A stretch of 36,376 bases of DNA from Candidatus Gastranaerophilales bacterium (GTDB lineage Bacteria; Cyanobacteriota; Vampirovibrionia; Gastranaerophilales; Gastranaerophilaceae): positions 1 through 36,376 of the forward strand of contig CALVAX010000017.1 in assembly GCA_944325605.1 (NCBI GenBank). The letters run 5' to 3'. A program made the translations under genes and the position numbers. Each line of letters starts with the position of its first letter. The stretch's first letter is position 1. Below the pieces are notes generated by a model that was not told the origin of the DNA, did no database searches, and saw only the letters and a list, made by a program, of their open reading frames with translations. Positions 330-19,640 of the stretch are shown here, piece by piece.

Positions 330-923
330 CTAATCTTCTGACGTGTTAGGATTATTCTTTTTTATATCACTTCCGGAACGTGTGTATTTTTCCAGCATAA
401 GCTGCTTATCTTTCCGCTGAAGCGATGTGAATTGTCCATATTTTTCATAACACATTACACTGTCTTCGGTACACGGGCCGTAAATCTTATCCAGGCCCAA
501 GATGTAACCGATTTCTGGCAATAGATATTTGTACAGTTCGTCATTTGAAACAGGTTTGTTATCTTTATTAATCTTATAGATAACTAAATTTGCCCTGTTT
601 ATATATCCCTGATCCATATTTGTAAAATATCCGGTTGTTTCAAATCTTTTCGGATATATGATAAAATATGGTGTTTTTTCATTCAAAAACTGAATTTTTA
701 TCGGTGCATTATTTGAGAAGAACCTTGTTGAATTATAACGGAATTTAACCCGATTGTTAGATGCCTGCGCCCAGGTGCTGAAGGCTCTTTGTATCACCGA
801 ACTGTACTCGCTTTCGGGAAGATATACGTCAATGTTTGTTACTCCCCATCTTGGCATTGAATAGCCAAATGCACTGCTTGCGCCTAATAAAAATATTCCG
901 ATTGTTAATAATATCTTTTTCAT
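330..923 (-). CDS. Exported matrixin-like protein lacking zinc ligands
   Basis: This 197-residue protein starts with a clear Sec signal peptide (residues 1-20, Lys-Lys then a hydrophobic run ending Ala-Phe-Gly). The mature part has the layout of small matrixin/M10-type metalloproteases: a surface-strand opening (MPRWGVTNIDVYLP), a central domain, then the would-be catalytic helix. The family motif is HExxHxxGxxH. Here the equivalent stretch is residues 136-146 (PEIGYILGLDK), with Pro136, Tyr140 and Lys146 where the three histidines should be. Glu137, Gly143 and a Met-turn-like SVMCY (155-159) are kept. I infer an extracytoplasmic, probably non-catalytic member of the fold. The gene has no Shine-Dalgarno site, and a promoter lies directly before the start. 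It is divergent from the SEC-C gene. Function unknown. Confidence 0.75.
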   Translation of the reverse strand: MKKILLTIGIFLLGASSAFGYSMPRWGVTNIDVYLPESEYSSVIQRAFSTWAQASNNRVKFRYNSTRFFSNNAPIKIQFLNEKTPYFIIYPKRFETTGYFTNMDQGYINRANLVIYKINKDNKPVSNDELYKYLLPEIGYILGLDKIYGPCTEDSVMCYEKYGQFTSLQRKDKQLMLEKYTRSGSDIKKNNPNTSED

Positions 924-929
924 ATTTTA

Positions 930-957
930 ATTATAACATATAATTTCTATTTTTCAA
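930..957 (-). promoter_or_regulatory. Promoter touching the start codon (leaderless type)
   Basis: On the minus strand TTGAAA (952-957), a 16-base spacer and a perfect TATAAT (930-935) end 6 bases before the ATG at 921-923. Transcription would begin at or next to the A of ATG. No Shine-Dalgarno sequence exists upstream, so a leaderless mRNA is the simplest reading. Confidence 0.6.
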
Positions 958-1055: not shown

Positions 1056-2363
1056 ATGGTTATTCAAGATGAATTAAAATCAATTAACGATATAATTAAA
1101 GATTTGGCTTTGTTTATAAGACAGGATGAAGTTATTCAGCCGGATTTTGCAGAATACATTAAGACTATCGGCATTAACACTTCTTCATCAAGTATTCAAT
1201 TTCAGGCAGCATGCTTTAATTATATTTTCGAAAGAAGGCTCGGTGCACAACGCAAATCTGTTTTTGAGATTTATATTGAAAGAAAAGCTGACCTTTCTGA
1301 GGAATCTAAAACAATTGTTGAAGAACTTAAAAACTCAATTGCATCTGTTTTTGAGGTTAAAAGAGTTCTCAGACACGGATTTAGCCTTTATAATATTGTA
1401 AATGAAAAAATTTACGAAGCGCTTTCTCTTGTTAAAATGACTTCATTTAAAGGTATCGGATCCGGCCAGTTTGTTGTGGCAAGAGTATTTTATCACAATA
1501 ATTCCTGCTATTTGCTTGAAATATCCGGCGTGCTGGCTTCCTCAAAAAAAGACGAAGCTTACAGATATGCTGTTGCTAAAATCGTGCAGGAGCCGGAGCT
1601 TGTTTATCTTGATAACCCTGAAAAACAAAAAGAAATTGAGGATGAAGTCGAAAATATTTACACTAAATTTGTTGAATTTTTCGGCACTGATGAAGTTGTG
1701 ACGACTAACAAATTCGCTGATGATTTAATCGGGTTATTCAATGACTTTGAAGAATCCGGACAAAAATCCGATTTTAGCGACAAAATTCAGCTTCCGGAAA
1801 AATACAGATTTTTTGAAGTTAAAGAATTTAACAATAGTTACAATAATTTCCTTGAAAATTCTCTCGGCGGATTTTCTTCACATGAAGAAACTTACGATGT
1901 CGGGATAATTTTTGATAAAGAACTCGGGTTGTATGCGGTACCTTTCTATGGCACCTTTAACAAAATTTTTGAGGCTGAAAATATCAATGATGTTGAAAAT
2001 TTCGACAAATGTATTGAATACTTCTTATTGAATGACAAAATTTCGGCTAATTTAATCAAAAAAGTTGCTTCAAAGCATAAGAATTTTATGGAAATTGTAA
2101 ACAAAGTGCTCCAAAACAGCTACAGACTTGATGATATTTTGAAAAAATATAAAAACAAATATTTGCAAAATAAAATTTTCTCATCAACAACTGTTTTGTA
2201 TAAATCAAAAGCTTTCTCGCAAACTCTCGGGATAATCGAAGAGGCCGAAGAAAAACCGAAACTTGATTTGACACAAATTGATATTTCAAAGATTGGCAGA
2301 AACGATCCTTGTCCTTGCGGCAGCGGGAAAAAGTTCAAAAAATGCTGCGGTGCCAATTTATAA
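1056..2363 (+). CDS. SEC-C motif protein, N-terminal part unknown
   Basis: The 435-residue protein ends in a SEC-C zinc-binding motif (about residues 412-433: [19 protein letters not shown], a C-x-C-x8-CC pattern). This module is also found at the C-terminus of SecA and in YecA-like proteins, where it binds zinc and contacts partners such as SecB or the ribosome. The preceding 400 residues are acidic, rich in Glu, Lys and Phe, without signal peptide or membrane segment, and I do not recognise them. The protein is therefore probably cytoplasmic. The start is supported by GAGGGAG about 8 bases upstream. A hairpin with a short T run follows at 2398-2423. The role is unknown; a link to export or ribosome quality control is only suggested by the motif. 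Confidence 0.75.
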
Positions 2364-9234: not shown

Positions 9235-12200
9235 ATGGGTATCAATAAAAAAATTATCATAAGTCTTTTGACGTTAACAGTGTTATACGGGGGATATTAT
9301 TTCGGGATTCCTGCTGTTTTGAACACCCCTGAAAGCGTCAATTTTTTAAAAAGTTATATAAAAAAAGAATTCGGCTTTGATACAAAAATTCAAAATCCCA
9401 AAATTAAAATGGGATATCTTCCATCTGTCTGGATTAAAGCTGACACCTTTGCAATTTTAAACAACGACGGATCCGCAGCCCTTGAATTTGGCGAAATATA
9501 CACAAAAATTAAACTGCTGCCTTTAGTATTCAGCAAGGCAGAAATAAGCAGTTTCAGCGGAAAGAATTTAATAGTTAACCTTACCTTTGACAAAAACTCC
9601 TGCCTGAAACTCGGGCAGTATCCGATTGTCGGAATATCTCAGCCAAAAATAAAACTCAACAAAGCGTCATTAAAACTCAAGAATTACAAAATAAATCTCA
9701 AAGACGAAACTGTTAACAAAAATATTACCCTGAATGGCCAGGATTTTATCCTGTACGATTTTACAAACAATAAGAGCGTAAAATTCTCAACCGGAAGCGA
9801 CCTTATTGTCGGAACAAAAACCGCATCAATTGCGGCAGATGTCGACGTAAAACTTCCGCTCAACAAAATTTCAGAAGATAAAATATTCATAAACGGAAAA
9901 ATTAAAGACCTTAATCTTTCTGACTTTTCGACTTATGCAAAATATCTTTCCCGCAACAAATTTGAAAAGCTTACAGGGATTGTAAACATTGACGTTGCCA
10001 CAACAACAGATAACGAAGGTCATAAAGAAATAAAAGGAAAAGCCTCAATCCAAAACTTCGGACTTCTGCAAAAAGACAAAGCCGCATCAATTTATTCCAC
10101 TGACACAATTAATATTAATTCTTCATTAAATATTATTAAAAACGGTATAGGCATAAACGAATTCAGCATAAAATCAAACGGCATAGATATGCTTTTCAAG
10201 GGAAATATTGAAAAGCTCAACACTCAAAAGCCTTTTATTGATATAAAAGCCGCGATTAACCCGTCAAAAATAGAAAATATAATTCCGATTTTACCGGGCG
10301 AAGAAAATCTTATAAGAGAAGCCAATCTATATTTGCTAAAGAAGTATCCCTATTACGGGAACATCATGGGCAACCTTGAAATTCGCGGGAATTTACCCGA
10401 ACCGTCTGTTAACGGAAACATTTTATCTACCGAAGGCTACCTTGTAAAGCCGATTCCAAACAATACGCCAAAAGCTACAATTAAATTAAAATTTAAAGGC
10501 GACACAACCGAACTTGATGCTGTTGTACCTGCAAGCACAACCCAGACTGTATTTGTAAAAGGCGATATTAATTTGTACAAAGACAGATCTGCGGATTTAA
10601 AAATCACAAGCACGAATAACGTTGATTTAAAAACAGCGCAAAATGTCTTAAATCCTCTGCACGAAATTTTAAGATTTGACCTCGGCCCTGTTCCGATTAT
10701 GGACATCAGAGGGAAAGGTAATATAGACCTCCACGTAGTAGGCACAGTTAAAGATCCGCATGCCTGGGGCGTTTTTAATTTTAGCAATACAACGGCCTCA
10801 TTTCTTGACATTCACAACATGACACTGACGAACGGAAAAGGCTCCCTGACTTTTGAAGATCAAAACACTCATTTTAAAACACAGACTGCCGTATTATACG
10901 GACAGCCGGTTTCTGTTGACGGAACCTGTACATTGCTCGGTGTACTTGATTTTAAGGTTTCAAGTCTTAACCAGAATTCTGCGAACCTGCTCAAGATTAT
11001 AAAAACCTCTCCGATGCTGAAAGATATTCAGACACTTCTTGCACCAGTACAGTCGGCAAGAGGATTGATGAATGTTCAGCTAAATCTTACAGGACAGGTC
11101 AAAGATGTTTATGACGTTGTATTCAACAAAAATATTTTTGCAAACGGCAGACTTGAATTGAAAGAAAACATCGTAAAAATAGACAAAATTCCTTCTGAAA
11201 TCAAAAACCTCACAGGATATGTAAATTTTGAAAACCTGAATGCAGACTTTAAAATGTCATCCGGAATTAATTCTTCACGGATAAATTTTGACGGCAAATT
11301 TAAAGACAACAATCTGGATGTAAAAGTTATCTCTGATAAATTCACAGTTGCTGATGCGGCTAAACTCGCACTTCCGGAAGGGAAAAAACTCCCGTTTTCA
11401 AAAGATCTTGCAGCAATCAACACAAGTTTTATAGCTGATTACAAAGGGCCTGTTGATGATATAAATTATAACAGCCTTAATGTCAAAGGCAAAATATACC
11501 CGAACAAAGAGAGTAAAAGCACGATTATCACCGAAGGAAGTTCTTTTACACTTAAAAATTCACACTTCAAACTCTCCCCGCTTCAGGGAAAATTCAAAAA
11601 TAACCCTTATATACTGACGGCTGATATCTCTAATATTATGAACAAAAATCAGGATATCAACGGGTATTTTTCAATGTCTGACTTCAATCTGGAAAATCTC
11701 GACAATCTAAAATTTCTGGATATTCACCCCGCAAACTTCAATCCGGATGATATTCAAGGTCTGAAAGGCGTTCTTGACTTAACAGCCCGAATCCGCCACA
11801 ACAATGTTTCGTTCTTTACAAAGCTTGATGATACAGAATTTATATATGTACCAAAACACTTAAAAGTAAAATTCAACAGCGGAAATATTCTTGTCCGCAA
11901 CAATGTGCTTTCGCTTAACAAAATCAACGCCTATGCCGGAGAAATGCCTGTTTTTATTGATGGAAAAGTGTTTAATTTCTACAAAAAACCTGAACTGGAT
12001 TTATACGTAAATGCAAAACCTACACAGGAATTTTTTGACCAATTTTTTAATAACAAAGCTGTTTATCCGATAAAAATTAAAGGCGACCTCAACGTCACTT
12101 CTAAAATTCAAGGAACTCAAGACAAAATTTCGACAAAAACCGATGTTAAAATAGAAGAAAATTCAAATATCTACTATATGGGCGCCACAATCGGCGATAT

Positions 12201-13680
12201 AGCAAATGCCGTGAAACTTAACATTGACGGGGTTTATACACCCACAGGCATCAAAGTAAATGATTTTAAATACGACAAAATTATAACATCTCAAAATAAC
12301 AAAAAATATTCAAATACCCAGTTAATCTCAAACGGCACACTGGAATTTTTGCCGGACAACAATGTCAGGTTCAAAAACTTCCGCGTAAAAACAGAAAACC
12401 CGACAGATGCAAAGATTTTTAATATTATATTCAGAAAGCCGTTTATGAAACAGGGAATTTTCACCTCCGATCTGTTAATAAACGGCACCTCGCAGGTTCC
12501 GAAAATTCTCGGCAGATTTGAGATTAATAGTATTGATATTCCATTCTTTGACTCTACAATTAATGATATCAGCCTGAATTTTAAACCTGATAAAATTCTT
12601 ATTAATTCAAAAGGTGTTGTTCTGACAAATCGTGTCGATGTGTCTGCTGAAATGACGAACAACCTTAAACCTCCATACAAACTTGATAAAATAAAAGTTA
12701 AACTAAACGACTTAAACATTAACAAGATAACCGACGCCATAAGAGATTATGAAAGCGATATTTATCATTCCAAATCAGCAACCGCACAGGCTGAAAACTT
12801 TAACCTGTCGCAGCTGGTAATAAAAGATGCACAAATAAATGCCGATACTGTCAAAATAAAAAATATAAATGCCGAAGATTTTTCAACAAATCTCAGTCTA
12901 AATGATAAAATGCAGCTTGATGTTAAGAATTTCCAATTCAAACTTGCAGAAGGTATTGTAAGCGGATCAGTCAAATACGATTTTCTAACAAACAGAGTTA
13001 GTCTTTTGATGCATATGCAGGATTCCAATGCCCAGATTATGTCAGAAACCCTGTTTGACCTTCACAATCAGTTATACGGCTCAATAACAGGTGATATTGC
13101 CTTAAGCTGCGATGCAAGAACTCACGAATCTTGTACAAGCTCTCTTGAAGGCAATGGTTCCTTCAATGTAGCAAACGGCAAAATGCCGAAATTAGGTTCT
13201 TTAGAATACCTTCTAAAAGCAGGCAACCTCTTGAAAGGCGGACTAACCGGATTATCAATAAACAGCATTATAGATTTAATAACACCGCTTAAGACAGGAG
13301 AATTCCAGAGTATAAGCGGTAATATGACTGTTAAAAACGGCATTGCCCAGAGTATAAATATTTATTCAAGCGGAAAAGACTTAAATATGTACCTTCATGG
13401 CACATATAATTTTGCAAACTCAAATGCTGATATGAATGTATATGGAACTCTTTCAAACAATATGACAAGCGTATTCGGCAAACTTAAGAATGCATCTTTG
13501 AATACACTTCTCAATACAATCCCCGGCATAAACAGAAATGAACTTGATCCTGCGATTATGGCGGAAATAAACAAAATTCCAAACATAAATAATCAAAATA
13601 TTTACAGGGTATTTCAGGCGGAAATCTTCGGGAATATTGACGGCACAAACTATGTCCGAAGCTTCAAATGGGTAAAATAA
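9235..13680 (+). CDS. Giant AsmA/YhdP-like envelope protein
   Basis: A 1481-residue protein with one N-terminal membrane helix (about residues 6-28) and no cleavable signal. The rest is a long run of repeated beta-strand segments with Asn, Lys and Asp turns. Near the C-terminus is an AsmA-type segment (about 1350-1450: GSITGDIALSCDA, later GNGSFNVANGKMPKLGSLEYL and SISGNMTVKNGIAQ). In the AsmA clan (AsmA, YhdP, TamB) such proteins are anchored in the inner membrane and form a long hydrophobic groove across the periplasm, moving phospholipids toward the outer membrane. This role is inferred from family architecture. Two cysteines in the C-terminal part (CDARTHESC) could form a disulfide. It is convergent with yidD and stands as a single-gene unit. 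Confidence 0.75.
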   Translation: MGINKKIIISLLTLTVLYGGYYFGIPAVLNTPESVNFLKSYIKKEFGFDTKIQNPKIKMGYLPSVWIKADTFAILNNDGSAALEFGEIYTKIKLLPLVFSKAEISSFSGKNLIVNLTFDKNSCLKLGQYPIVGISQPKIKLNKASLKLKNYKINLKDETVNKNITLNGQDFILYDFTNNKSVKFSTGSDLIVGTKTASIAADVDVKLPLNKISEDKIFINGKIKDLNLSDFSTYAKYLSRNKFEKLTGIVNIDVATTTDNEGHKEIKGKASIQNFGLLQKDKAASIYSTDTININSSLNIIKNGIGINEFSIKSNGIDMLFKGNIEKLNTQKPFIDIKAAINPSKIENIIPILPGEENLIREANLYLLKKYPYYGNIMGNLEIRGNLPEPSVNGNILSTEGYLVKPIPNNTPKATIKLKFKGDTTELDAVVPASTTQTVFVKGDINLYKDRSADLKITSTNNVDLKTAQNVLNPLHEILRFDLGPVPIMDIRGKGNIDLHVVGTVKDPHAWGVFNFSNTTASFLDIHNMTLTNGKGSLTFEDQNTHFKTQTAVLYGQPVSVDGTCTLLGVLDFKVSSLNQNSANLLKIIKTSPMLKDIQTLLAPVQSARGLMNVQLNLTGQVKDVYDVVFNKNIFANGRLELKENIVKIDKIPSEIKNLTGYVNFENLNADFKMSSGINSSRINFDGKFKDNNLDVKVISDKFTVADAAKLALPEGKKLPFSKDLAAINTSFIADYKGPVDDINYNSLNVKGKIYPNKESKSTIITEGSSFTLKNSHFKLSPLQGKFKNNPYILTADISNIMNKNQDINGYFSMSDFNLENLDNLKFLDIHPANFNPDDIQGLKGVLDLTARIRHNNVSFFTKLDDTEFIYVPKHLKVKFNSGNILVRNNVLSLNKINAYAGEMPVFIDGKVFNFYKKPELDLYVNAKPTQEFFDQFFNNKAVYPIKIKGDLNVTSKIQGTQDKISTKTDVKIEENSNIYYMGATIGDIANAVKLNIDGVYTPTGIKVNDFKYDKIITSQNNKKYSNTQLISNGTLEFLPDNNVRFKNFRVKTENPTDAKIFNIIFRKPFMKQGIFTSDLLINGTSQVPKILGRFEINSIDIPFFDSTINDISLNFKPDKILINSKGVVLTNRVDVSAEMTNNLKPPYKLDKIKVKLNDLNINKITDAIRDYESDIYHSKSATAQAENFNLSQLVIKDAQINADTVKIKNINAEDFSTNLSLNDKMQLDVKNFQFKLAEGIVSGSVKYDFLTNRVSLLMHMQDSNAQIMSETLFDLHNQLYGSITGDIALSCDARTHESCTSSLEGNGSFNVANGKMPKLGSLEYLLKAGNLLKGGLTGLSINSIIDLITPLKTGEFQSISGNMTVKNGIAQSINIYSSGKDLNMYLHGTYNFANSNADMNVYGTLSNNMTSVFGKLKNASLNTLLNTIPGINRNELDPAIMAEINKIPNINNQNIYRVFQAEIFGNIDGTNYVRSFKWVK

Positions 13681-13934: not shown

Positions 13935-16040
13935 TTACATAGCAAAACTTTCGCCGATAGTGTCGACTGCCTCAACCTTAATATCCGTGATAAGTTCCGA
14001 ATAAGAAATAACAACAATTGTCGGAATATGACGTTCCAGAAGCTGATACAAAGGAAGACGAATTCTTGGCGAACACAGGATAACAGGGTTTCTTCCGCAT
14101 GCCTGATGTGCACGCACCATAGTAGAAGCTGTTGTTTCAATCAATTCCTGCACCTGCATAGGATTTAAGAGGAACATCGTTCCAAGCTCTGTTCTCTGAC
14201 AGCTGTCATCCAGTGTTTTTTCCCACTCGGGAGAAAGCGTCAGAGCATACAAAACTTTGTCATCCTCAACATTTGCAAGACAGATTTGACGCCCGAGAGC
14301 AGCCCTCAAACGTTCAGACAAAATATCCGGCTCTTTTGAAAATCTTGCATAATCGCAAAGTCTTTCAAATACAAAAATAATATCCTTAATTGAAACCTTT
14401 TCTCTGATAAGGTTAACAAAGATTTTTCTTAAATCGCTTGTAGAAATAATCGTTGGGACAAGGTCATTGACCAACGTCGGGTCTTGCGAACGTACAAGTT
14501 CCATAAGTTTAAGCACGTCAGTCTTTGTCATAACTTCATCAACATGCTTTCTGACACATTCCTGAAGATGTGTTACGATAACATCGGTTGAATCAAAAGC
14601 CATAACAGAACGAACAGATTTGGCGTCATCCGGTGTAATCCAGTAAGCCTGAGTCTGATAAGTCGGGTCTATCCCGATAATCGCATCCTGAGGAACTTCT
14701 TTTTTAACAGCATCCCACTGGTCAGCAATAACCATAAGTCTTCCCGGATAAACGTATCCTGTGTCGACAGTGTTGCCGCGGATTTGAATCATATATTCAT
14801 TCGCATCCAGAGCAGAAGAATCCATAATTCTTATGTTCGGCAGAATGTAACCCAATTCATCCGTAACTCTTTGACGAAGAGCAGCAATTTTAGCAAGCAG
14901 CTGTCCTTCCTGATCAGGATCCGCGATTACAAGCAAGTTTGAACCGACCTGAAGGCTCAAAATATCAACACCCAAACGTTCATACATTCTGTTCGGGTTA
15001 ACAAGATCCTGCATATTCTGTCTGACGCTTTCCAACTGACCTAACTGGGATTGAACATCCGCATTGATAAGAGTTGAAAATCCGGTAATAGCAAGTCCTA
15101 TAGCAAAAAGGAAGAACGGTAAAAAAGGAAGCCCCGTCCCCTGCCAGAACCACGTATGACCGGTAAATGCCAGCAATAACAAGAACCCTGCAGACAAGAA
15201 CAAAGCATTCGGCTTACTTTTAATTTCAGCAGTAACATCAGAACCTAATGAATTTGCAGCGGACGCACGCGTCATAAAGATACCTGCCGCAATTGACATC
15301 AAAAGCGACGGAACCTGAGAGGCCAAACCATCACCGATAGTCAGGATTGTATATCTTGAAACTGCTTCTTCGACCGGCATCTGGTTCATCAAACACCCGA
15401 CGCACAAACCGCCGATAATATTGATAAGTACGATAATGATACCCGCAATTGTATCCCCTTTTACGAACTTCATCGCACCATCCATTGAACCGAAGAGGTT
15501 TGATTCTCTTTGCAAATCTTCACGTCTTTGGGTTGCTTCTTCAGGAGATATCAAGCCCGCGTTAAAGTCAGCGTCGATAGTCATTTGTTTACCAGGCATA
15601 GCATCCAAAGCAAACCTTGCGGAAACTTCAGCAATACGTTCCGCACCTTTTGTGATTACCATAAACTGTACAACTGTTATGATAAGGAAGATAACACCGC
15701 CGACAACCATGTTACCGCCGGTTACAAATGTTCCGAAAGCATGAATAACCTCTCCGGCTTCGCCTTTCGACAAAATCAACCTTGTTGATGCAATTGAAAG
15801 TACAAGCCTGAACATTGTACCGATAAGAATAATTGACGGAAATGCCGCAAGTTCAAGGGTCTTTTTTACATACAACGAAATCATCAAAAGCACAACGCCA
15901 AGTGTAATATTCAAACAAATAGAAACATTGACAACCCAGTTTGGAAGTTCAACCAATAAAAGAACAATAAGCAGCAATACGAATATCGCCATTGCGACTT
16001 CGCTTAAATTTGTGCTTCCTGCTGATCCCTGTGCTGCCAT
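13935..16040 (-). CDS. flhA: FlhA, export gate of flagellar-type T3SS
   Basis: A 701-residue FHIPEP-family protein, full length. The N-terminal half has about eight membrane helices and the conserved blocks AAFPSIILIGTMFRLVLSIAS, then FALDAMPGKQMTIDADFNAG, SMDGAMKFVKGDTIAGI and YTILTIGDGLASQVPSLLMS. The C-terminal ~350 residues form the cytosolic ring domain that receives export substrates and chaperones. FlhA and injectisome SctV share these motifs. VVQFMVITKGAER and MDGAMKFVKGD are slightly SctV-like, but the linked fliE and fliF favour FlhA. The start overlaps the fliH-like stop (TAATG), suggesting translational coupling. Confidence 0.9.
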   Translation of the reverse strand: MAAQGSAGSTNLSEVAMAIFVLLLIVLLLVELPNWVVNVSICLNITLGVVLLMISLYVKKTLELAAFPSIILIGTMFRLVLSIASTRLILSKGEAGEVIHAFGTFVTGGNMVVGGVIFLIITVVQFMVITKGAERIAEVSARFALDAMPGKQMTIDADFNAGLISPEEATQRREDLQRESNLFGSMDGAMKFVKGDTIAGIIIVLINIIGGLCVGCLMNQMPVEEAVSRYTILTIGDGLASQVPSLLMSIAAGIFMTRASAANSLGSDVTAEIKSKPNALFLSAGFLLLLAFTGHTWFWQGTGLPFLPFFLFAIGLAITGFSTLINADVQSQLGQLESVRQNMQDLVNPNRMYERLGVDILSLQVGSNLLVIADPDQEGQLLAKIAALRQRVTDELGYILPNIRIMDSSALDANEYMIQIRGNTVDTGYVYPGRLMVIADQWDAVKKEVPQDAIIGIDPTYQTQAYWITPDDAKSVRSVMAFDSTDVIVTHLQECVRKHVDEVMTKTDVLKLMELVRSQDPTLVNDLVPTIISTSDLRKIFVNLIREKVSIKDIIFVFERLCDYARFSKEPDILSERLRAALGRQICLANVEDDKVLYALTLSPEWEKTLDDSCQRTELGTMFLLNPMQVQELIETTASTMVRAHQACGRNPVILCSPRIRLPLYQLLERHIPTIVVISYSELITDIKVEAVDTIGESFAM

Positions 16041-16873
16041 TAAACTTCTTTCAGAGCCTCCTTAATTATTGCAAGCTGACTTTCAATCGTTGCATCTATT
16101 ACCCCATTGTTGGTTGATACAATACACCCGCCTTCTGTCACTGTTTCGTCAGGTAAAACAACTATTTTTGCATCTAAGCCTGCATCATTTAACATATCCG
16201 GAATTCCTTGTTTTGCAATGCCTGCCTGCGCAGGATTTACCCTTATCGTAACTTTTGGTTCTTCTTTTGAAAGTGTTTTTAAAATTTCCGTAATTTTTGT
16301 GATTACAACTTCCGGATTTTGTTTTATCTCATTCTTAATAATTTTTTGCGCTATATCAATACTTATTTCCAGAATATCCGGAGCAATATATTCAAAAACT
16401 TCCTGCGGAGCATTCATAAACGAGGCAAACGATTCTTTGATTTGTGCAATGTCTTCTGCGGCACGCTTGATACCGTCCTGATAACCTTCCTTATTAGCGG
16501 CTTCTCTTATGCTGTCAGCTTCTTCTCTTGCTCTGGAAATCAGATTTCTGTCATCTACACGTCTGAAACCGCGTCTGCGATCTCCACGCCTCCGCTCATG
16601 ACGCTGTTTAAAATCTATATTATCCAGATTAAACAAGTCAATTTCTTCCGGCTCCTGCGTCTGCGGGGGTTCCTGCTCTTCCGGCCGGTCTGCAGCTTCG
16701 GAAAGTTCTTCCTGTGTCATTTCAAAATTATCTTCTTCAAAAATTTGCCCGCCAAAAGACGGCTCAACTTCAGGAAGCGGCGCATATCCCAAATCATCCG
16801 CCTCCGGCTGAACCTTTGTGTTTTCCGGTTTGGAAATTTCAGGTTTTCCGGTAGTTTTTTTCTTAATAATCAT
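16040..16873 (-). CDS. fliH: FliH-like export-ATPase regulator
   Basis: A 277-residue protein. Residues 1-90 are acidic, Pro/Glu-rich and probably disordered. They are followed by a very basic stretch (QRHERRRGDRRRGFRRVDDR, about 89-108) and a helical region (REEADSIREAANKEGYQDGI). The C-terminal domain (about 160-277) matches the FliH/SctL pattern: LEISIDIAQKIIKNEI, then VTIRVNP, then VLPDETVTEGGCIVSTNNG and DATIESQLAII. FliH binds the FliI ATPase and controls substrate delivery to the export gate. No fliI is in the window. The gene lies 12 bases after the fliG-like stop and overlaps flhA by one base, so it is in the same operon. Confidence 0.8.
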   Translation of the reverse strand: MIIKKKTTGKPEISKPENTKVQPEADDLGYAPLPEVEPSFGGQIFEEDNFEMTQEELSEAADRPEEQEPPQTQEPEEIDLFNLDNIDFKQRHERRRGDRRRGFRRVDDRNLISRAREEADSIREAANKEGYQDGIKRAAEDIAQIKESFASFMNAPQEVFEYIAPDILEISIDIAQKIIKNEIKQNPEVVITKITEILKTLSKEEPKVTIRVNPAQAGIAKQGIPDMLNDAGLDAKIVVLPDETVTEGGCIVSTNNGVIDATIESQLAIIKEALKEV

Positions 16874-16885
16874 GATTTAATTTTA

Positions 16886-17947
16886 TTATACACTATGTTC
16901 CAGATGCGAGGCAATAACTGCTGCAACACGCGGGGACATTTTATAAAATTCGCCTTCCAGAGCATTAAAAACAAACCGCCGGACATTGGGTCTTTCAAGC
17001 TGTACCAGCGCTTCCAGCTTCTGTCTGTCCATCATAGAAGCCGTTGTTTTTACTCTTTCTACAAGTAAATTTGTATTAACTTCTGTTGCGGACGGAAGAT
17101 TTTTCCCGATATCTTCAAGCACTCGCATAGTAACAGACGGGTCAACTTTTTCTTCCAGATTGTCCACATACATATATCTTAAAACGGTTCCGGCATCGTC
17201 CTGTTCAAAATGATTTAAAATTGATTGAACCCTGTCATCCGTAACACGTTTTAAAAGAAGCGCAACAGCAACAAGTTTAAGCAGTTTAGGCGGTTTATAT
17301 TTTTCTATCGGTTTTGATATGTCAACAGGTGCAGCCGGTGCTCCTGCCGGAACCGGTTTTGCTCCACCCTGAGGCGCCTGTGCGGAAGGTTTATGTGCCG
17401 CTTGCGGCTGAGGAGCCGGCTGCGCTGCAGGCGGAGCCGGAGGTTCTTCCTGCATCTGCTGCATCATTGAGTCTATGTTTGACTGCTTAACCGCTTTTTC
17501 CATCAAGGCTTCATCTATAAGGTTTCTGTCTTTCAGTTCTTTTATAGATTCATCATAAGCTTTTTTTACATGGTGCTCAATAAGTTGTAATATCTGATCT
17601 TGCGGAAGATTTTGTTTAAAAGTCTGCTGTGCTATTTCAAAAATAGTATAGGCAATTTTCTGCATTATCGGATCCCAGAATTGCTGTGGGATACCGGATC
17701 TTATAAGGTCAACAGACTTGTGGAAAGACCACTCGGCAATAATCTGGGTTATCATCATTGCCTGATCGGCCGTAAATCCGCTCTCTTTGTCTTCTGAAAG
17801 GGCTTTTCCTGCCATATTTGAGAAGTTATAAAGAGTATTAACAACAAACTGCTTCTGGTTGTCGTTAAAATCAGCAGGAACTATCTCTTTTGCCTGATCT
17901 GTCAAATTTTTTGCGAATTCTTCGTAATTAAACCCTTTTATTGCCAT
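16886..17947 (-). CDS. FliG-position protein, divergent
   Basis: A 353-residue protein in the slot fliG normally fills (fliE-fliF-fliG-fliH). Residues 1-165 are a helical domain I do not recognise (FNDNQKQFVVNTLYNFSN, IAEWSFHKSVDLIRSGIPQQ). Residues 168-218 are a Pro/Ala/Gln linker. Residues 219-353 look like FliG armadillo-type helices (LLKLVAVALLLKRVTDDRVQ, ILNHFEQDDAGTVLRYM). They end in YKMSPRVAAVIASHLE, which resembles the NMSxRAA helix of the FliG C-domain. I cannot find the charged torque helix of motile FliG proteins. It may therefore be a scaffold that joins FliF to the export machinery without making torque. The assignment rests on position plus weak similarity. Confidence 0.55.
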   Translation of the reverse strand: MAIKGFNYEEFAKNLTDQAKEIVPADFNDNQKQFVVNTLYNFSNMAGKALSEDKESGFTADQAMMITQIIAEWSFHKSVDLIRSGIPQQFWDPIMQKIAYTIFEIAQQTFKQNLPQDQILQLIEHHVKKAYDESIKELKDRNLIDEALMEKAVKQSNIDSMMQQMQEEPPAPPAAQPAPQPQAAHKPSAQAPQGGAKPVPAGAPAAPVDISKPIEKYKPPKLLKLVAVALLLKRVTDDRVQSILNHFEQDDAGTVLRYMYVDNLEEKVDPSVTMRVLEDIGKNLPSATEVNTNLLVERVKTTASMMDRQKLEALVQLERPNVRRFVFNALEGEFYKMSPRVAAVIASHLEHSV

Positions 17948-17993
17948 TAAATTTCCTTTTTCCTTTTATTTTTACATCCGGTTAAATGTAAAA

Positions 17994-19640
17994 TTAAGTT
18001 TCTTCTATCCAGCTCTTAATCTTGTCAGCGGCATCTGCTTCGTTCGCTTCTGAAAGATTTGCAGACATATTTGCAAGAGTATTTACAAGATCATCTGTCG
18101 TATGAAGCGCCAGATATTCTTTCTGCTGCGCTTCAAGAAGCCCTTGTGCAAGCTCTGACTGGCGTTCCGTTAATTGTGCCGCACGGGCATTCATATCCTG
18201 AATAAGTTTGTCCTGCTCTGCCTCTTTTTGTCTGAGCATTGCAACTTCTTTTTCGTGTTCTTCCTGTGCTTTTCTCAACTTGCTGTGAACAGCTCTTGAT
18301 ACTGCTATCAATCCGATTACGCACAGTGCAATCGTAATCCACCACGGGTTCCCGCTTTCGTCAGGCTTTGGAAGATTGGCCTGTCTGTCGCCTGCAAGGT
18401 TAAGCTCTGAAGTATCAGAGTATGCAATTGTTACATTTTCCGGTAAAGCTTTCGGGCTTGCGGTACGGGCTATCAACTCTTTCAATTCTTCTTCTGTTGT
18501 GTTTGCAGGAAGTGCTGTTTTTTCCATTGTTACAGCAATTGAAATTTCTTCAATAACACCGGGTTTTATGTATTCATTTGTCTGGGTTTTTGTAACACCA
18601 TACTGGGTTTCTGTTGCAGAACGGGAGTAACTTCTGTCCTGTGTTGAATTCTGACCGCCTGCGGCAATGCCATTTGGAATATATACACTGACTGCATTCG
18701 GACTCTGGTTGCTGTCACGTGTTTGATCCCCCAAACCTTCTGTAAATGACTGCTCGGTAACAGCAGTTTTCTGATTAGGGTCATATTCAATCCTTGTTCT
18801 TTCCATCGGAGCCTGTCTTAAATATGTACTGACAGTTGCCGTATAATTGCCGGCACCTATCAGACGGTCAAGCTGCCTGGAAACTTTTTGCTGCATGTAT
18901 TTATCATTTTCCTGAAGCTTTGAAAGCAGCTCATCGTCAGCGTCTATCATACTGGAATAAACATTGCCGTTTGTATCCGTTATGGAAACATTGTCTGAAA
19001 CAAGTCCGCTGACACTTCCCAGAAGAAGGTTTGTGATTGCTTTAACTTTTAAAGGATCCAATTTATCCCCTGCCGGAATTGAAACCTGAACTGTTGCCGT
19101 TACAGGCTTCTGCATTGAGGTAAACATCGACTGTTCCGGAATAGAAATAAATACAGAAGCGTTTTCTATCGGAGGAATTTTTCTGATTAATCTTGACAAT
19201 TCACCGTTTATGGCACGGGCAAGACGAATTTTTTTATCCTCTTTTGTTGATGTAAAATCCCCTTTGTCAAAAATTTCAAGACCGACATTCTGATCCATCA
19301 AACCGCTCTTTACAATTGCCAGAAGAGCCTGATCACGCTGTGTCATTGTATAGGAATTCAAAAATATTGTAGATTTTGTACCCTCTGTTTTACGGCTGGC
19401 AACAATACCTTCCCTTGACAATAAGGCCTGAATTTCAATAGCTTTCCCGAGATTATCCGTTGTCAAAAGGTCAAGAGGTTCTTTTATAACCTTTTCGCTC
19501 ACAACTCTTGCGGCACCTTTGCTGTTCTTGCCGTTATTTACAACAATTCCGATTGTCGTAAAAAGAGCCAGCAGAATTACTATTATGCCTATAATCCCGT
19601 ATAACAAAGGTTTATTTTCCAGTATTTTTTGAAAGTCCAT
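17994..19640 (-). CDS. fliF: FliF, MS-ring protein
   Basis: A 548-residue inner-membrane ring protein. TM1 is at about 12-34, followed by ring-building motifs RBM1/RBM2 (LLTTDNLGKAIEIQALLSRE, LARAINGELSRLIRKIPPIE, ASVFISIPEQSMF, KVKAITNLLLGSVSGLVSD) and the RBM3 region with its long insertion (DPNQKTAVTEQSF, then TNEYIKPGVIEEISIAV). TM2 is at about 433-450. After TM2, a charged coiled coil (455-508) is followed by an acidic helix (DDLVNTLANMSANL...IKSWIEE), longer than I expect for the FliG-binding tail. FliF homologues form the membrane platform for the rotor and export gate. It follows fliE by 64 bases. Confidence 0.88.
   Translation of the reverse strand: MDFQKILENKPLLYGIIGIIVILLALFTTIGIVVNNGKNSKGAARVVSEKVIKEPLDLLTTDNLGKAIEIQALLSREGIVASRKTEGTKSTIFLNSYTMTQRDQALLAIVKSGLMDQNVGLEIFDKGDFTSTKEDKKIRLARAINGELSRLIRKIPPIENASVFISIPEQSMFTSMQKPVTATVQVSIPAGDKLDPLKVKAITNLLLGSVSGLVSDNVSITDTNGNVYSSMIDADDELLSKLQENDKYMQQKVSRQLDRLIGAGNYTATVSTYLRQAPMERTRIEYDPNQKTAVTEQSFTEGLGDQTRDSNQSPNAVSVYIPNGIAAGGQNSTQDRSYSRSATETQYGVTKTQTNEYIKPGVIEEISIAVTMEKTALPANTTEEELKELIARTASPKALPENVTIAYSDTSELNLAGDRQANLPKPDESGNPWWITIALCVIGLIAVSRAVHSKLRKAQEEHEKEVAMLRQKEAEQDKLIQDMNARAAQLTERQSELAQGLLEAQQKEYLALHTTDDLVNTLANMSANLSEANEADAADKIKSWIEET

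Follow-up and report, generated by a model that had tools for sequence, protein, structure and literature searches.

The gene at 330..923 on the reverse strand of the window (the whole stretch of 36,376 nucleotides of Gastranaerophilales DNA that was analysed) encodes a pseudo-matrixin, an exported protein with a predicted matrixin fold in which all three zinc histidines have been replaced, and the dead version is retained in its genus. The protein is very probably both catalytically dead and functional. The best explanation, with somewhat more confidence than doubt, is a pseudopeptidase that is exported, lacks zinc and acts by binding to a partner, which may be an active matrixin.

The open reading frame (197 aa, stop codon included in the coordinates) encodes a product that opens with MKKILLTIGIFLLGASSAFGYS. 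A signal peptide (residues 1-20; 864..923, reverse strand) was predicted by inspection from a KK pair, a hydrophobic run and an A-x-G/A site, the start of the mature protein being put near Tyr21; this region is alike in 12/12 rows of the genus, which agrees with the claim of the earlier note that the protein is exported. In an alignment with the active matrixins of the genus (HEIGHAIGLEH), the degenerate helix PEIGYILGLDK (residues 136-146; 486..518, reverse strand) stands in place of HExxHxxGxxH, with His1 replaced by Pro136, His2 by Tyr140 and His3 by Lys146, and with Glu137, Gly143 and Met157 retained. The Met-turn SVMCY (residues 155-159; 447..461, reverse strand) has kept Met157, which is present in 12/12 rows, and has gained Cys158. 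The reading from which the analysis started, namely replacement of all three zinc ligands beside a retained Glu137, Gly143 and Met-turn, was borne out in full by this alignment. The RFETTGYFTNMDQGYI loop (residues 93-108; 600..647, reverse strand) ranks with the best-conserved stretches of the family in this genus, and the C-terminal tail (residues 183-197; 333..377, reverse strand), which is of low model confidence, exceeds the length of that of a typical active copy. A family search assigned a single domain to the window protein and no second one.

Upstream of the gene lies a promoter-like site (930..957, reverse strand) with TTGAAA, 16 nt and a TG before TATAAT, a -35/extended -10-like arrangement with 11/12 matches. 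A TATG-TA-AAT-like box is found immediately upstream of the gene in 12/12 aligned intergenic regions, one of which has TGTG for TATG. Sites of the -35/extended -10-like kind as such are not rarer in the window than in shuffles (6 observed vs a mean of 5.0).

The window protein is predicted to have a matrixin fold. Pfam Matrixin (PF00413) covers residues 26-147 with 21 bits (E 3.4e-4), which is under the gathering cut-off of 24 bits, and the comparison by hhalign of 12 genus copies with eight active paralogues reached 98.4% (E 8e-15, 167 columns). An AlphaFold2 model built with the 12 complete genus copies showed a core pLDDT mostly of 86-97 and a pTM of 0.73, residues 5-26, 97-106 and 183-197 being below pLDDT 50. 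Foldseek against the PDB yielded 29 matches at E <= 0.001, the top one being 8b2n_C (3.7e-5), which is MMP-12 complexed with an inhibitor; with VIA-align the best match was karilysin (Z 13.6, rmsd 3.4, 136 residues, 21% identity), and MMPs gave Z values of 12.5-13.2. The fold is assigned because the model matches karilysin and the MMPs in these two comparisons, and a chance motif is ruled out by the predicted fold together with the profile match (VIA-align, hhalign). A sequence-based profile search of the PDB returned archaemetzincins alone (best E 0.0045) plus two unrelated chains, and a search of NCBIfam returned nothing relevant. The earlier note had staked its reading on a matrixin-like structure, and prediction and superposition gave one. 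Among the features of the Matrixin family M10A, the HExxHxxGxxH motif is missing, the Met-turn methionine is present and homology to the intact matrixins of the genus is present; as regards pseudopeptidases in general, catalytic residues have been lost in a peptidase fold that is retained under selection.

The gene was found in 13 of the 14 genomes of the genus, the window's own counted (the genus is labelled g1; the codes g1, g2, g11, g35 and f1 are nameless labels of genera and families). Twelve of these copies are complete and were used for all comparisons, and the thirteenth (G008) is interrupted by a contig end. The gene is absent from G004, an 87%-complete genome in which the SEC-C neighbour described below was likewise not found, and a true loss in this genome was therefore not accepted. 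The other 11 complete copies share 50-79% protein identity with the window protein. The frame is open in all 12, the window's among them, and no frame-disrupting decay was seen among the complete genus copies. Tyr stands at His2 in 12/12, and His3 has become Lys in 11 copies and Arg in the remaining one; His1 has been lost in 11 of the 12 and is kept in G001. The catalytic Glu is kept in 11 copies and is Gly in G010. The idea that the retained Glu137 points to conserved chemistry was rejected, because Glu has been lost in this one orthologue and in all dead copies of g2 and g11; on its own it is no sign of function. GYILGL, Cys151, Met157 and Cys158 are invariant across the 12 copies. Against an overall mean column entropy of 1.05 bits, the former zinc helix averages 0.48 bits, residues 93-108 average 0.44 and residues 21-35 average 0.42.

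The Nei-Gojobori dN/dS to the nearest relative was 0.127 (dN 0.139, dS 1.09), and closer genus pairs gave 0.13-0.20 at a dS of about 1, values which are rough at a dS of about 1 or more, near saturation, and which indicate constraint and not its exact strength. On the same rough scale the rate of the dead gene exceeds that of its active paralogue, for which the same nearest pair gave 0.058, the SEC-C neighbour giving 0.054; the median dN/dS at dS < 3 was 0.25 for the dead gene (62/66 pairs), 0.15 for the active paralogue (63/66) and 0.07 for the SEC-C gene (58/66). Judged by these rates, the dead version is kept under purifying selection in the genus. Its retention as a pseudoprotease, which the earlier note had preferred to random decay, is well supported by the intact frames, the dN/dS of 0.13-0.20 and the single clade and shared neighbourhood set out below, and the conservation in relatives that it had proposed to look for is traceable in four genera.

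For a wider survey, 26 dead copies were combined into a profile, which was run against 383 genomes of the family and which its own source copies match by construction. It gave 38 places above 170 bits, whereas the G008 fragment scored 135.5 and the best intact matrixin 129.7. The 38 places correspond to 37 distinct ones (G351 repeats the window), all without His2 and His3, and apart from G351 they belong to genera g1, g2 and g11; no match above 170 bits was found outside the family in 383 genomes sampled from the order (matches listed to about 83 bits). The copy in G351 (L039, G351:C74) encodes an identical protein, although that genome is placed in another genus. A 2.4-kb piece of its contig matches the window at 99.75% identity, so that this copy is probably a binning error and a gene transfer into G351 is the less likely reading. 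A fourth kind of dead copy, with HEIANALALKL or a similar helix, occurs in four genomes of g35. The assembled set of 135 rows comprises 41 dead copies, 85 intact ones, eight in which only the third ligand is changed and one fragment; His2 and His3 are missing from all 41 dead copies. The eight rows (L077, L092, L096, L100, L103, L110, L112 and L113) have HExxHxxG with Asp or Glu in place of the third His, were counted apart and not as dead, and are encoded on the strand opposite to adjoining intact matrixins. Two dead matrixins of g2 (L090 and L095) are without the Met-turn region, with the frame still open.

In a quick tree of 131 of the 135 rows, with the zinc helix removed, the dead rows lie on one side of a branch (SH-aLRT 93). 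A more careful tree covered 91 of the 135 rows after manual thinning, with three distant matrixins of one genome as the outgroup; in it 34 dead rows form a clade with support of 96/95, present in 95% of 200 bootstrap trees. A single origin of the dead copies is supported by these trees, but the tree by itself is no proof of it, because support drops to 84/87 once the columns from the helix past the Met-turn are also removed.

The neighbourhood of the gene agrees with a common origin of the dead copies in the four genera and lends that origin support. In the window the dead gene is divergent from the gene of a 435-aa SEC-C-motif protein (1056..2363, forward strand), which marks the locus. The same divergent arrangement is found in the genus (all 12 complete loci, and G008), at 12/12 loci of g11 and at 4/4 of g35. 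A symporter gene follows the dead gene at 12/12 g11 loci, at 9/10 g2 loci and at several g1 loci. On the upstream side, g2 has RsmH- and FtsL-like genes (10/10) and not SEC-C. Among these neighbour names SEC-C and Maf alone rest on a family search, and the symporter (SDF type), RsmH and FtsL are what we take these genes to be from their sequences. None of the 33 loci with active copies only carries a SEC-C, symporter, RsmH or FtsL neighbour within its short flanks. When the SEC-C protein itself was used as query, 92 of 97 genomes proved to carry it, and among the best 30 SEC-C loci a matrixin adjoins in 10, all of them in g1, g11 or g35. Elsewhere in the window, two copies of GTTTGTCATTCGGGAGTTTC followed by GGTAACCAGCGCTACC lie at the contig end (positions 1-40 and 111-149) and probably belong to a dispersed repeat at which the assembly broke off; positions 13935-19640 on the reverse strand hold flagellar export and basal-body genes (FHIPEP, FliH, FliF), which a YhdP-like ORF (9235-13680) adjoins.

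Two of the invariant residues, Cys151 (471..473, reverse strand) and Cys158, are proposed as disulphide partners. A pair of cysteines, lying from the end of the zinc helix to just past the Met-turn, is present in 24 of the 41 dead rows vs 0/93 others, namely in 12/12 rows of g1 and 12/15 of g11, and in none of g2 or g35. The first cysteine lies exactly at the His3 position in g11 (QAVGRALGVPC...GVMVC) and five residues after it in g1. Families of the VKOR and thioredoxin-like types make disulphides, and both domains occur together in one 416-aa ORF of the window genome (L171/L172, G000:C13:2711-3850), so that disulphides in exported proteins are plausible. A Cys151-Cys158 disulphide may have taken over the stapling role of the zinc in the window protein; judged by the g2 and g35 copies, which have no Cys pair, it is not a general replacement of the metal.

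As to what the dead protein does, action through binding to a partner is the moderately favoured reading, and an active matrixin is a tentative choice for that partner. The dead protein would then be specific to active matrixins and would control the exported intact ones in the role of decoy, inhibitor, chaperone or heterodimer subunit; of the specific explanations considered this one fares best, although it too falls short of an even chance. An observation in its favour comes from g35, in which an intact matrixin gene abuts the dead gene with gaps of 3, -1, 2 and 2 nt (4/4 genomes). Such close spacing is the usual sign of a co-translated pair, and the arrangement suggests a partnership of dead and intact matrixin. 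Active paralogues, for which the earlier note had suggested a search, were found: in the window genome, which is 99.8% complete at 2.15 Mb, PF00413 has five more matches above the cut-off, all with intact motif, and each of the 13/13 genus genomes with the dead gene holds 2-5 intact matrixins. This co-occurrence does not discriminate, however, because intact matrixins are also present in genera of the family that have no dead one (for example g24 and g8), and in g1 and g2 the dead gene does not adjoin an active one, the active matrixins of the window genome sitting on other contigs.

Only slightly less credible, and likewise tentative, is a stand-alone, adhesin-like binder of an envelope or extracellular ligand (a peptide, a glycan or a host matrix protein) that is unlinked to active matrixins. 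It is consistent with the Sec-type signal seen by inspection on a protein without a second domain, with the invariant ETTGYF loop motif and the conserved N-terminal PRW segment, and with the C-terminal tails of the dead copies, which have a median length of 16 residues in g1, 12 in g11 and 17 in g35 (3.5 in g2) vs 2 (range 0-17) in 90 active or active-like rows; the tail is, however, a low-confidence part of the model. A new enzyme, in which Arg93, Glu95, Tyr99 and Tyr140 (all invariant in 12/12) form a zinc-free active site with other chemistry, is improbable, as the dead copies that g2, g11 and g35 contribute to this clade do not share Tyr140 and ETTGYF. Least probable of all is a decaying gene without function, with which the lost zinc site, the faster evolution relative to the active paralogue and the g2 copies that lack even the Met-turn would fit, but random decay is rejected on the open frames in 12/12 complete copies at 50-79% identity and on the dN/dS of the closer pairs, and the -10-like box shared by 12/12 also speaks against it.

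For the preferred reading, a partner-binding pseudopeptidase, the following course is proposed. A single-domain exported matrixin would no longer bind the catalytic zinc and is predicted to be unable to cut by the matrixin mechanism, its fold being kept with the zinc ligands lost, as alignment and model indicate, and purifying selection has kept the dead version in the genus. According to tree and locus, one ancestral matrixin probably lost His2 and His3 before g1, g2, g11 and g35 split, His1 and Glu having been lost separately afterwards. In g1 and g11 a bridge between the two cysteines, from the end of the old zinc helix to the Met-turn, would replace the zinc and staple the lower half of the domain. 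Binding, we infer, would occur via a remodelled cleft face, formed by the kept helix surface, the ETTGYF loop and the N-terminal PRW strand, together with the C-terminal tail. Candidates for the partner are the active matrixins that the same cell makes, which the protein might serve as inhibitor, chaperone or docking subunit, and other proteins of the envelope.

Compared with karilysin and the vertebrate matrixins (MEROPS M10A, PF00413), the window protein is alike in its predicted fold, its Met-turn methionine and the position of the zinc helix, but it has no zinc ligands, no propeptide was seen, it carries a Cys pair about the Met-turn and a longer C-terminal tail, and it scores 21 vs 24 Pfam bits. 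The pseudopeptidase ADAMs (M12; ADAM11, 22, 23 and others) are likewise metzincins with substituted zinc ligands and general base and a kept Met-turn, and their pseudopeptidase domains serve protein-protein contacts, according to the available part of a 2024 review of pseudometallopeptidases (PMC11266112). They differ as multidomain membrane proteins of animals from another metzincin family, whereas the window protein is a single bacterial domain. The same part of that review highlights M12 and M14 and gives ADAMs as the only metzincin pseudopeptidases (PMC11266112). Zincins with a substituted HExxH, such as CLCA, resemble the window protein in having conserved substituted zinc motifs and no assigned function; such motifs are conserved in all domains of life, as stated in the accessible portion of Lenart et al. 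2013 (PMC3650047). They belong to another family in which Lys or Arg often replaces His1 and His2, and the Cys pair and shared locus of the window family are features not seen for them in that portion of the text (PMC3650047). A 2025 study of MMP phylogeny and gene transfer excluded sequences without HEXXHXXGXXH, as far as its available sections tell (PMC12587646), and because the zinc motif is used as a survey filter in this way, pseudo-matrixins escape view. Among the top results listed in searches of open-licence PMC texts, no description of a bacterial pseudo-matrixin was found.

Pseudopeptidases as such are already known; new here are the occurrence of the dead version in four genera with a neighbourhood in common, the order in which residues were lost, the pair of cysteines and the pairing of genes in g35. 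As a speculative generalization, gut Gastranaerophilales may hold a vertically kept zinc-free matrixin lineage, with a disulphide-held site in two branches, that partners intact matrixins. The evolutionary steps of such a lineage would still be readable, His2 and His3 having gone before His1 and Glu, with some members losing the Met-turn as well. One clade displays how a metal site was lost step by step while the fold persisted, and how a disulphide may plausibly have replaced the zinc; with dead and intact genes side by side in g35, it becomes testable whether bacterial pseudopeptidases regulate active relatives.
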